Assembly: GCF_023634805.2 (NCBI RefSeq)
Contig: NZ_CP106881.1
Coordinates: 558,001 to 622,000, forward strand
Source: Comamonas endophytica
GTDB lineage: Bacteria > Pseudomonadota > Gammaproteobacteria > Burkholderiales > Burkholderiaceae_C
Length of the DNA stretch: 64,000 nt
Reading direction: 5' to 3'
Shown: positions 11,643-49,590 of the stretch, in pieces
How the letters are laid out: each line of letters opens with the position of its first letter
Position numbering within the stretch: position 1 is the first letter of the stretch
Notes under the pieces: model-generated
Databases searched by the model: none
What the model saw: only the letters and a program-made list of their open reading frames with translations
Told to the model about the DNA's origin: nothing
Position numbers and translations under genes: made by a program

Positions 11643-11718
11643 TCCTCAATAGCTCAGTCGGTAGAGCGCCGGACTGTTAATCCGTAGGTCCCTGGTTCGA
11701 GCCCAGGTTGAGGAGCCA
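11643..11718 (+). tRNA. tRNA-Asn (GTT), copy 1
   Basis: A 76-nt cloverleaf. Acceptor arm TCCTCAA pairs with TTGAGGA, the anticodon loop is ACTGTTAAT with anticodon GTT, the T arm contains GGTTCGAGCC, and the 3' CCA is encoded. Identical to copies 2 and 3. Confidence 0.97.
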
Positions 11719-11770
11719 AGAATTTTTCTTGCCTTGCAATCGAACAAGGCAATTGCGTCAGTCAAGTTGT

Positions 11771-11846
11771 TCCTCAATAGCTCAGTCGGTAGAGCGCCGG
11801 ACTGTTAATCCGTAGGTCCCTGGTTCGAGCCCAGGTTGAGGAGCCA
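11771..11846 (+). tRNA. tRNA-Asn (GTT), copy 2
   Basis: Second identical 76-nt copy, with anticodon GTT and encoded CCA. A 52-nt spacer separates it from copy 1; the spacer holds a short TTGCCTTG...CAAGGCAA inverted repeat that may guide processing. Confidence 0.97.
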
Positions 11847-11888
11847 AAAATTTCTGCCCGGCAATTGTACCGGGCGTACCGCAGATAT

Positions 11889-11964
11889 TCCTCAATAGCT
11901 CAGTCGGTAGAGCGCCGGACTGTTAATCCGTAGGTCCCTGGTTCGAGCCCAGGTTGAGGAGCCA
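11889..11964 (+). tRNA. tRNA-Asn (GTT), copy 3
   Basis: Third identical 76-nt copy, with anticodon GTT and encoded CCA, 42 nt after copy 2. A strong terminator begins 4 nt after its CCA, so the three genes are probably one transcript. Confidence 0.97.
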
Positions 11965-46632: not shown

Positions 46633-47229
46633 TCAGCGCCGGTCCGAAAGTGCATGGGCAATGGTGCCCAGATCCACATACTCCAGCTCGCTGCCCACCG
46701 GCACGCCGCGCGCCAGCCGCGTCACATGCACGCCGCGGCTCTTGAGCGCCTCGCTGATCGCATGCGCCGTGGCCTCGCCCTCGGCGGTGAAGCTGGTGGC
46801 CAGGATCACCTCCTGCACGCCGCCCTCGCCCGTGCGCGCGAGCAACTCGGGCAGGCCCAGGTCGCGCGGCCCGATGCCGTCGAGCGGCGACAGCCGCCCC
46901 ATCAGCACATAGTAGCGGCCCTGGTAGGCGCCGGTGCGCTCCATCGCCGCGAGATCGGCCGGGGTTTCCACCACGCACAGGCGCGCGCTGTCGCGGCTTT
47001 CGTCCTGGCAGATGGCGCACAGCCGGCCCACGGTGAAGGTATGGCACTGCGCGCAATGCTGCACCGTCTCCAGCGCCGCATCGAGCGCGCGCGCCAGCTG
47101 GCCCGCGCCCTCGCGGTCGCGCTGCAGCAGCTGATAGGCCATGCGCTGCGCCGACTTCACGCCCACGCCCGGCAGGCGGCGCAGGGCCTGGATCAGATCA
47201 TCCAGTGGATGTACATCGGGAATGGTCAT
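46633..47229 (-). CDS. recR: Recombination mediator protein RecR
   Basis: Works with RecO and RecF to load RecA on gapped DNA. The 198-residue product has an N-terminal helix-hairpin-helix ([19 protein letters not shown]), a four-cysteine zinc finger ([19 protein letters not shown]) and a Toprim domain ([15 protein letters not shown]). It is part of dnaX-ybaB-recR, the arrangement seen in many proteobacteria. Confidence 0.96.
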
Positions 47230-47308: not shown

Positions 47309-47641
47309 TCAGAACGGGAATTTCATGCCGCCAGGCAGGCCCGGCATGCCGGCCGTCAGCTTGCCCATCTTTTCCTGGGAAGTCTCTTCGGCCTTGCGCA
47401 CCGCGGCATTGAAGGCGGCAGCCACCAGGTCCTCCAGCATGTCCTTGTCTTCCGCCAGCAGGCTGGGGTCGATGGTCACGCGCTTGACGTCGTGCTTGCA
47501 GGTCATCAGCACCTTGACCAGGCCGGCGCCGGATTCGCCCTCGACCTCGACATTGCCCAGTTCGTCCTGGGCCTTCTTGAGGTTGTCCTGCATGGCCTGG
47601 GCCTGCTTCATGAGGCCGGCGAGTTGTCCTTTGTTGAACAT
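47309..47641 (-). CDS. ybaB: YbaB/EbfC nucleoid-associated protein
   Basis: A 110-residue dimeric DNA-binding protein. The pattern [29 protein letters not shown], then [30 protein letters not shown] and a Gly/Pro-rich C-terminus, is typical. It sits 20 nt after dnaX and before recR in the same operon. Confidence 0.95.
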
Positions 47642-47661: not shown

Positions 47662-49590
47662 TTAAGCAGGTTTGATACTACCCGGCACGATGCGTGCGCC
47701 ATGCTCGCGCATCAGCGTCTGCACCAGGGGGTCATTCATCACGATGTCCTCGGCCACGCGCTGGCGCTCCTGCGCCGCGGCCGCATTGCGCCGCGCGGGC
47801 GTGTCGGTGACCGGGCCGATCTCGACGCTCAGCTGCTGCGCCAGGCCGGCTTCAGCCAGCGCCGCGCGCAAACGCTCGCGCGCCGTGGCCTGGTTCAGCG
47901 ACTGGCGCTGCACGCACAGCGTCCAGTGATCGCCCTCGCAGCCCACGAGCTGCGACTGCAGCGCCAGCTCGCGCACCAGCGCGGTGATGGCCTCGCTGGC
48001 GATCAGCTGCTGCACGGCGGCAAACCAGCGGTCGCCCTCGGGCGTGGTCTGCACCGGCTCGCCCGAAGGCTCGGAGGGAGTCCAGGCGGCGCGGGCCATC
48101 GGTTCGGGTGGGGATTCGGGTTCAGTCTGAGGCTCGGGCGCGGCGGGCCGGCGCTGCGCCATCCGAGGCGACTCCTGCGGCAGCGGCTCCCAGGGCGGCA
48201 CCTCCATCGGCGCGAATTCCACGTTGTCGATGCCAAAGGGCTCGCCCTCGCCATCCTCGGCAGACACCACGGCTTCGGCCAGCGGCTGGCGCACGGGCGG
48301 CTCGGCGCGCGGCGGCGCCACGGGCGCGGCAGCGGGCGCAGGCGCTGCGACCGGTGCGGGGCGCGCAGCGGGAACGGGCACGGGAGCCGGAGCTGGCGGC
48401 TCAGGCCTTGCCGCGGGCGCTGCCACAGGTGCCGCAACTGGGGCTGGCGCTGGGGCAGTCTCAGCTATTGCCGGAGTTTTTTTTTCAGCCGGTGCCTTGA
48501 AGGCCAGCAGCCGCAGCAGCGCCATGGTCAGCGCCGCGTATTCATCGGGCGCCAGGCCCAGCTCGGTGCGGCCATGCAGGCAGATGCTGTAGAGCAGCTG
48601 CGTTTCATCGGCCGGCATGGCCTGCGCCAGACGGGCGATCATCTCGGCCTCGGGGTCGCTGGCGTCCTGCGCCATCTGCGGCACGGCCTGCAGCACCGCC
48701 ATGCGCTGCAGCACGGCGGCCATTTCCTCGAGCGTGGAGGCAGCGGACAGTCCATTCACGCGCAGCGCATCGGACGTCTCGACGACGCTGCGGCCATCGC
48801 CCTGCGCCAGCGCGGCAATCAGGCGGAACACATGCGAGCGGTCGACGCTGCCGAGCATCTGGCGCACGCCCGCTTCCAGCAGCTGGCCGCTGCCGAAGGC
48901 AATGGCCTGGTCGGTCAGCGACAACGCATCGCGCATCGAGCCGCGCGCGGCGCGCGCCAGCAGGCGCAGCGCCTGCGGCTCGGCGGGAATGTTCTCCGCC
49001 TCCAGGACCCGGCCCAGATGCTCGAGCACGGTTTCGGGCGCCATCGGCCGCAGGTTGAACTGCAGGCAGCGCGAGAGCACCGTCATCGGCACCTTCTGCG
49101 GATCGGTCGTAGCCAGCACGAACTTCAGGTATTCGGGCGGCTCCTCGAGCGTCTTGAGCATGGCGTTGAACGCCGTGTTCGTCAGCATGTGCACTTCGTC
49201 GATCATGAAGACCTTGAAGCGACCCTGCACCGGCTTGTAGACCGCCTGCTCGAGCAGTCCCTGGACCTCGTCCACACCGCGGTTGGACGCCGCATCCAGC
49301 TCGGTATAGTCGGGAAAACGCCCACTGTCGATCTCGGTGCAGGCGGCGCAGACGCCGCAGGGCGTGGCGGTGATGCCGCCCTGGCCGTCGGGCCCCTGGC
49401 AGTTGAGCGACTTGGCCAGGATGCGCGACACCGTCGTCTTGCCCACGCCGCGGGTGCCGGTGAACAGGTAGGCATGGTGCAGGCGCTGCTGCGTCAGGGC
49501 GTTCGAAAGCGCCTGCACGACATGCTCCTGCCCCACCATTTCGGAGAAATTGCGGGGACGGTATTTGCGGGCAAGCACGAGGTAGGACAT
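47662..49590 (-). CDS. dnaX: DNA polymerase III tau subunit (gamma/tau gene)
   Basis: Clamp-loader ATPase and replisome organiser. 642 residues: Walker [10 protein letters not shown], the zinc-binding [10 protein letters not shown] segment, DEVHML, sensor-1 region, domain III ending near residue 365, then a long Pro/Ala/Glu-rich linker (about 370-510) and a C-terminal polymerase-binding domain. The start is ATG 49590 ([15 protein letters not shown]). At the domain III/linker border (codons 369-372) lies a run of nine A, with stops in both other frames within 5-6 codons, so a shorter gamma product is likely. First gene of dnaX-ybaB-recR. Confidence 0.95.
48461..48486 (-). promoter_or_regulatory. 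Predicted slippage site in dnaX (A9 run plus out-of-frame stops)
   Basis: Coding strand GAA AAA AAA ACT CCG GCA ATA GCT GAG; the A9 run is at 48477-48485. A -1 shift reads AAC TCC GGC AAT AGC TGA, a +1 shift reads CTC CGG CAA TAG. Either ends the protein at about 375 residues, after domain III. Rare ATA is used in the zero frame where it supplies the overlapping stop codons. Confidence 0.75.

Follow-up and report, generated by a model that had tools for sequence, protein, structure and literature searches.

A conserved nine-adenine run in dnaX of Comamonas endophytica and its relatives as a candidate slippage site for a gamma-like clamp-loader subunit

The dnaX gene of Comamonas endophytica carries nine consecutive A's (A9) on its coding strand where domain III gives way to the linker, which raises the question of whether this run is a programmed recoding site from which a short, gamma-like DnaX would be made in addition to full-length tau. 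A first-pass annotation of the window, by which we mean the whole 64,000-nucleotide stretch analysed here (contig NZ_CP106881.1, positions 558,001 to 622,000), had proposed a slippage site of the Thermus thermophilus type. In this regard, reading of the sequence confirms A9 at the domain III border with stops in both other frames, the -1 frame ending at the sixth codon (TGA) and the +1 frame at the fourth (TAG), just as it had stated (Table 1). Its remark that the two stops overlap a rare ATA codon (48468-48466) applies to the TAG; the TGA arises from GCT GAG.

The window gene is matched by the TIGR02397 profile (E 8.1e-123) and contains the Pfam domains DNA_pol3_delta2, DNAX_ATPase_lid, DNA_pol3_gamma3 and DNA_pol3_tau_5, and the E. 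coli gamma chain (1jr3_A) aligns with residues 1-366 of its product. At the run, frame 0 reads GAA AAA AAA ACT CCG GCA ATA GCT GAG. From the ATG at 49590, the predicted products comprise 374 residues in the +1 frame, 376 in the -1 frame and 642 for tau, in agreement with the short product of about 375 residues, made up of domains I-III, that had been anticipated. E. coli gamma reaches beyond domain III, and the short product predicted here would thus be no exact equivalent of it. Downstream of dnaX lie ebfC (47309-47641) and then recR (46633-47229). Directly upstream, head-to-head with dnaX, the window carries ffs, the bacterial small SRP RNA (RF00169, 49758-49854, plus strand).

Table 1. Positions of dnaX, of the candidate slippage run and of the associated stops in the window
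Feature	Position	Strand	Remarks and basis
dnaX (DNA polymerase III subunit tau/gamma)	47662..49590	-	642 aa from ATG 49590; ORF, TIGR02397, Pfam
Domain III (Pfam DNA_pol3_gamma3)	48493..48876	-	Pfam match; 3' end directly before A9
A9 slippage run (candidate), phase G-AA AAA AAA A-CT	48477..48485	-	Sequence read and conservation
TAG stop, +1 frame (A8 or A11 transcripts would reach it)	48465..48467	-	4th codon
TGA stop, -1 frame (A10 transcripts or a -1 ribosomal shift would reach it)	48461..48463	-	6th codon
Coding sequence (371 codons) common to tau and to the gamma-like short form predicted	48478..49590	-	
Tau domain V (Pfam DNA_pol3_tau_5), absent from the short product	47683..48051	-	Pfam match

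In a list of all runs of at least seven, the dnaX A9 is the sole homopolymer of at least eight nucleotides in the window; dinucleotide shuffles of the window gave a mean of 0.10 A8 matches, and two or more in 2 of 100 shuffles. The whole genome (4.49 Mb, 3 contigs) holds four A9/T9 runs, and that of dnaX is the only one inside a recognisable protein gene, as judged from ORF lists and reading. On this same basis, the other three comprise one located between ORFs and two identical copies on contig C3. The latter pair is flanked by two plausible genes, overlaps a pair of anonymous minus-strand ORFs and resembles a terminator. The first-pass annotation had argued that such a run is unlikely to persist without selection; chance is indeed excluded, mainly by the conservation described below. 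Elsewhere, the window includes an ilvH cis-regulatory RNA (RF02993, 23050-23117, minus strand; 96.7 bits against a gathering score of 55.1) and three tRNA-Asn(GTT) genes in tandem (11643-11964, plus strand).

Within the host genus, dnaX was matched at threshold in 50 of 53 genomes, three giving no match, and among the resulting 50 loci, one per matching genome, 49 carry A9 in the same codon phase. The exception, L048, has neither the run nor the Lys-Lys pair. Named genome records identify the genus as Comamonas, one locus (from G047) coinciding with Comamonas testosteroni NFYY023, and matching site sequences indicate that the genus set apparently includes Delftia as well. Genome G002 yielded two dnaX matches, on contigs C34 and C29 (90% and 82% identity), possibly reflecting a mixed assembly or a second copy; the C29 match was left out of the count.

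At the level of the family, dnaX was found in all 250 genomes searched, spanning 126 genus codes. Eighty loci, nearly one per genus code and taken among the higher-scoring matches listed, comprised 66 with A9, one each with A10, A8 and A_AAA_AAG (A6G), and 11 without a site, including L104, which carries an N within the run. To counter the score bias, 60 further family loci were collected with a query from a genus without the site and by handle, 50 of which were left once repeats and partial matches had been removed; these more distant loci comprised 46 with no site, three with A9 (L317, L323, L332) and one with A_AAA_AAG (L328). Within the family, then, the A9 site is widespread on one side and scarce on the other. 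A set of 80 named loci from Delftia, Acidovorax, Variovorax, Rhodoferax, Ramlibacter, Hydrogenophaga, Limnohabitans and others, of which 63 were new relative to the sets already described and many come from the same or close genomes, gave 75 A9, three A10 and two A_AAA_AAG, both in Polaromonas. Identical sequences over 500 nt around the site and matches ending before query residue 340 were dropped, as were L002 and L003, which are not dnaX; the 332 distinct loci kept were searched for the site up to 110 nt from where the domain III match ends.

The same run length and phase recur in 176 distinct family loci, and the A10 and A8 variants of the family other than L277 (L099, L251, L274, L115) keep the frame. 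Both observations bear on the idea that A9 could be explained by an assembly artefact or by phase variation of a mutable tract. Homopolymers do mutate and are error-prone in assemblies, and two loci look like errors: L104, with its N, and L277, with A10 and a broken frame. Against the constancy of length and phase, however, this explanation is barely credible; tau is expected to be essential, and therefore off-phase cells should not survive. As for L277, a named MAG of an uncultured beta proteobacterium, it has A10 where its relatives have A9 and its frame 0 ends at 385 aa, so that either its assembly is in error or the arrangement is reversed, with tau needing slippage.

In a dnaX tree of 147 rows, many of whose inner forks are weakly supported, A9 marks one clade of 95 rows with a support of 97 (SH-aLRT, quick search). 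This clade holds 77 of the 81 A9, A10 or A8 rows together with 14 A_AAA_AAG rows and four rows without a site, L104 being one of the latter. The A9 label requires 11 changes on the tree, compared with a mean of 48.6 when shuffled. The host-genus locus L048 and rows L325 and L327 lack the site inside the A9 clade; therefore, the site can be lost. The expectation that relatives would conserve the run thus holds for one clade of the family, and fails in 46 of the 50 loci from its more distant genera.

What keeps the run in place? Across the 176 family loci it occurs at 23 different offsets, 1 to 91 nt past the end of the domain III match, from which it follows that the linker has been remodelled around the run and that its position is not fixed simply by protein alignment. 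With the codon usage of the individual gene taken into account, the probability that synonymous codons would spell A9 is about 0.03 per gene (median), and synonymous choice by itself would yield A9 in 3.7 of 66 loci. These figures weigh against the view that no recoding takes place, the A9 being a relic or held by its Glu-Lys-Lys-Thr peptide and giving rise to no important short product. It is true that Glu-Lys-Lys-Thr/Ser is itself kept in 171 of the 180 loci with the run, and a low-complexity linker could carry a neutral motif. Nevertheless, Gln replaces Glu with the run intact in 8 of the 180, a Lys-Lys pair occurs within 40 codons in 181/181 A9 loci against 3/116 loci without a site, and the stops persist in both frames even though the +1 stop is spanned by 35 different peptides. 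We consequently consider the absence of recoding very improbable.

The first-pass annotation had suggested comparing the two stops among relatives, and 62 of 69 loci (genus code g84 present twice) keep both, against 2.0% in codon shuffles, which, like the Leu comparison below, ignore shared ancestry. Taken singly, the +1-frame stop falls at index 6 or below in 66 of the 69 loci (12.6% in codon shuffles) and the -1-frame stop at index 8 or below in 65 (17.2%). Of the two, the +1 stop is the more tightly placed, standing at the second codon in 58/69. Likewise, both stops are present in 38 of 49 loci of the host genus (2.8% by codon shuffle) and in 46 of 58 of the named set (2.9%). Different residues and codons supply the +1 stop. 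Where a Leu codon follows the run, as it usually does, its last two bases plus the next base form the +1 stop in 132 of 135 loci, compared with 14.0% at other Leu codons of these genes; the spellings are CTG+A (115), the rare CTA codon before G (9) or A (5), TTA+A (2) and TTA+G (1). This is the strongest single sign of selection.

Taken together, these features make it likely that the A9 run is a programmed recoding site from which polymerase slippage would generate a gamma-like clamp-loader subunit of dnaX. RNA polymerase would slip on A9 and produce transcripts with 8, 10, 11 or other numbers of A's; on those in the wrong frame, translation would end within a few codons, yielding a 374- or 376-residue protein composed of domains I-III, and the A9 and A12 transcripts would give full-length tau (642 residues, with one more Lys from A12). 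Since polymerase slippage both adds and removes bases it needs both stops, and both are retained in the A9 clade; for a ribosomal -1 shift, a stop in the -1 frame would suffice, and the retention of the +1 stop therefore points towards transcripts of variable length. We infer from these sequence patterns that slippage occurs and at what level, that transcription rather than the ribosome would be its main agent, and that the short protein would function as gamma. The Thermus-type reading of the first-pass annotation is thus supported by a run and a pair of stops conserved far beyond codon-shuffle expectation, and its interpretation is very likely right in kind.

It could be argued that the short form arises, as in E. 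coli, by ribosomal -1 frameshifting, here on A_AAA_AAA inside the run. The in-frame heptamer is present and is a possible slip site that could add to slippage or replace it, and 65/69 loci keep a -1 stop at index 8 or below. In addition, predicted folding around the site in A9 loci is somewhat stronger than in codon shuffles (minimum free energy, mean z -0.59, se 0.13), with mean z of -0.36 and -0.32 just downstream of the site and of -0.06 to 0.14 in downstream-shifted controls; the A_AAA_AAG loci gave -0.34 and 0.01 downstream, with controls at -0.38 to -0.21. The extra folding at A9 exceeds its controls but is weak, and we claim no conserved stem. Ribosomal shifting leaves unexplained, however, both the +1 stop (second codon in 58/69 loci; 132/135 Leu sites) and the use of nine A's rather than seven, and A9 loci show no conserved upstream element, unlike the A_AAA_AAG lineage discussed below. 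Moreover, PMC5009743 describes A_AAA_AAA as far less prone to shifting in E. coli than A_AAA_AAG. We therefore regard a ribosomal origin of the short form as unlikely, and continue to favour polymerase slippage.

Reporter experiments in E. coli (PMC3711429) gave frame changes of 10, 40 and 63% for 7, 9 and 11 A's, the 40% for nine A's coming from a run of another gene family. Runs of this kind are thus efficient, whichever mechanism is at work; frame change that rises with poly-A length does not separate a ribosomal from a transcriptional origin.

Nested in the A9 clade is a lineage, consisting of Polaromonas (genus code g90) and genus code g28, that carries in place of A9 an in-frame A_AAA_AAG, the E. 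coli-type heptamer. Code g90 was taken as Polaromonas because the named Polaromonas locus L270 and the g90 genome L348, which was dropped from the counts as a repeat, have the same site context. The g90 search matched 27 of 31 genomes and gave 28 loci, 25 of them with the in-frame heptamer; L366 (74% identity) has no site, and L367 and L368 are pieces of one broken gene. The heptamer is likewise found in 5/5 loci of g28. In 23 distinct g90 loci, the -1 stop lies at index 6 or below in 23/23 (expectation 20.4%) and the +1 stop is present in 1/23 (expectation 15.3%), so that the lineage keeps the -1 stop only, as ribosomal frameshifting would need.

The same lineage displays a purine-rich upstream element, GGG-RGY-GCC-GYC-GAG, that is held at synonymous sites in 31 loci: GCC in 31/31 (38% of the Ala codons of these genes), GGG in 26/31 (15% of Gly codons) and GAG in 28/31. 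It looks like a Shine-Dalgarno-like stimulator, resembling that of E. coli dnaX. We found no conserved upstream element in the A9 loci, and the window dnaX is without A_AAA_AAG, having A_AAA_AAA inside its A9.

The phylogeny of the heptamer deserves comment, as a first quick tree split Polaromonas from g28, which would imply two separate origins of A_AAA_AAG. A tree holding all 14 A_AAA_AAG rows together proved better in likelihood by 64.66 (p-AU 0.829); since this grouping is not rejected, one switch is enough. Two origins were accordingly set aside, and a single origin is preferred, though not proven; g28 sits on a long branch. Within one family, the short DnaX thus appears to be made by two mechanisms. 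We think it probable, with somewhat less assurance than for the slippage site itself, that the device was swapped: the ancestor of the clade would have had A9 slippage with both stops, the Polaromonas/g28 lineage would have changed once to ribosomal -1 shifting on A_AAA_AAG, gaining the Shine-Dalgarno-like element and losing the +1 stop, and the distant genera would mostly have neither device.

Differences in tRNA-Lys content were considered as a cause of this switch. According to PMC5009743, two tRNA-Lys species may favour polymerase slippage and a sole tRNA-Lys ribosomal shifting, a proposed correlate that does not define the Thermus type. The host genome has three CUU and one UUU tRNA-Lys genes. 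A CUU gene was matched in 15/15 A9 genomes (several of them matching CUU only, with a pattern that misses some UUU genes), in 12/12 genomes of genera without the site (dnaX read in 10) and in 8/12 Polaromonas genomes (dnaX read in 11), where the other four, three with no pattern match at all and one with UUU only, do not imply absence of CUU. The CUU gene was matched in all three groups and therefore does not discriminate among them; tRNA-Lys content as the cause of the Polaromonas switch is not supported. Our survey hence bears on the tRNA-Lys explanation of mechanism choice and does not support it.

How far does the site extend beyond the family? Among 64 distinct loci from the rest of the order, counted without L133 of the host family, a run of A9 or A10 lies no more than 110 nt from domain III in five, namely L148 and L150 (both f49), L176 (f47), L162 (f4) and, in another phase, L191; L184 has A8 and L186 A_AAA_AAG. 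Deeper in the linker, A9 or A10 occurs in L135, L171 and L181. Only a -1 stop is nearby in L148, L150 and L135, and the two-frame pattern is not universal among these loci. In 69 loci of the class, searched over a wider stretch, we found eight with A9 or more, five with in-frame A_AAA_AAG, six with other short runs and 50 with none. Such sporadic sites in order and class indicate that they arise repeatedly; deep conservation is particular to the A9 clade. The site is therefore not general to Burkholderiales: it marks one clade of one family and is sporadic elsewhere.

Two further observations concern these outlying loci. In L144, L165 and L171 of the order, A8G or A9G runs in another phase lie 110-188 nt past domain III, with a -1 stop one to two codons on, and may be independent shift sites. 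L135 (f7) contains A9 as GCT GAA AAA AAA ACT GAG, 463 nt past domain III and with an immediate -1 stop, a candidate for a separate site outside the host family.

A 2012 review (PMC3290774) states that, enterobacteria and Thermus apart, most bacteria are without a dnaX frameshift signature and possibly produce no gamma. An entry for a dnaX frameshift in Neisseria is also described (PMC5009743, PMC3711429, PMC1088944 and PMC3290774 collectively), and PMC1088944 notes that comparison does not readily predict functional truncating sites like the one in Thermus dnaX. Our searches, which covered open-licence papers, listed none recognisable as dealing with dnaX recoding in the host family (Comamonas, Polaromonas, Comamonadaceae). 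To the first-pass annotation our findings add how far the clade extends, the retention of the +1 stop and, in Polaromonas and g28, the substitution of an E. coli-type site for A9, probably once. A signature conserved across so large a clade argues that a short DnaX is selected there. Related genera that appear to differ in mechanism also form a natural experiment, in which one can ask what maintains gamma and by what route one recoding device gives way to another while the product persists.

Comparison with known systems was made through the published descriptions of Thermus and E. coli dnaX. The dnaX gene of Thermus is described in PMC1088944 and PMC5009743 as having A9 on the coding strand with tau in one frame and stops nearby in both others. 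Like it, the window gene and its relatives have nine A's, an intact tau frame and conserved nearby stops in both other frames; unlike it, the run here adjoins domain III, and whereas slippage and a 1:1 ratio were measured in Thermus, slippage at the present site is a prediction. As the Thermus lineage is unrelated, the likeness is probably convergent. A two-ORF dnaX with A10 in the GeneTack set, for which PMC3711429 suggests transcriptional realignment, is likewise a case of a poly-A recoding site in dnaX, but there the shift is needed for tau, which here is the unshifted product. Caulobacter also obtains a gamma-like short form from dnaX; there, it is proteolysis that makes it, through cleavage of tau (PMC5009743).

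With E. coli dnaX, which uses a -1 ribosomal frameshift on A_AAA_AAG, the window shares the gene and the predicted output, gamma, but it has A9 together with a conserved +1 stop and is devoid of the upstream element. The Polaromonas/g28 lineage, for its part, resembles E. coli in its in-frame heptamer, its upstream purine-rich element and its -1 stop. In Polaromonas, about 15 nt separate the element from the heptamer, against 10 nt between stimulator and heptamer in E. coli, and no stem-loop downstream was conspicuous.
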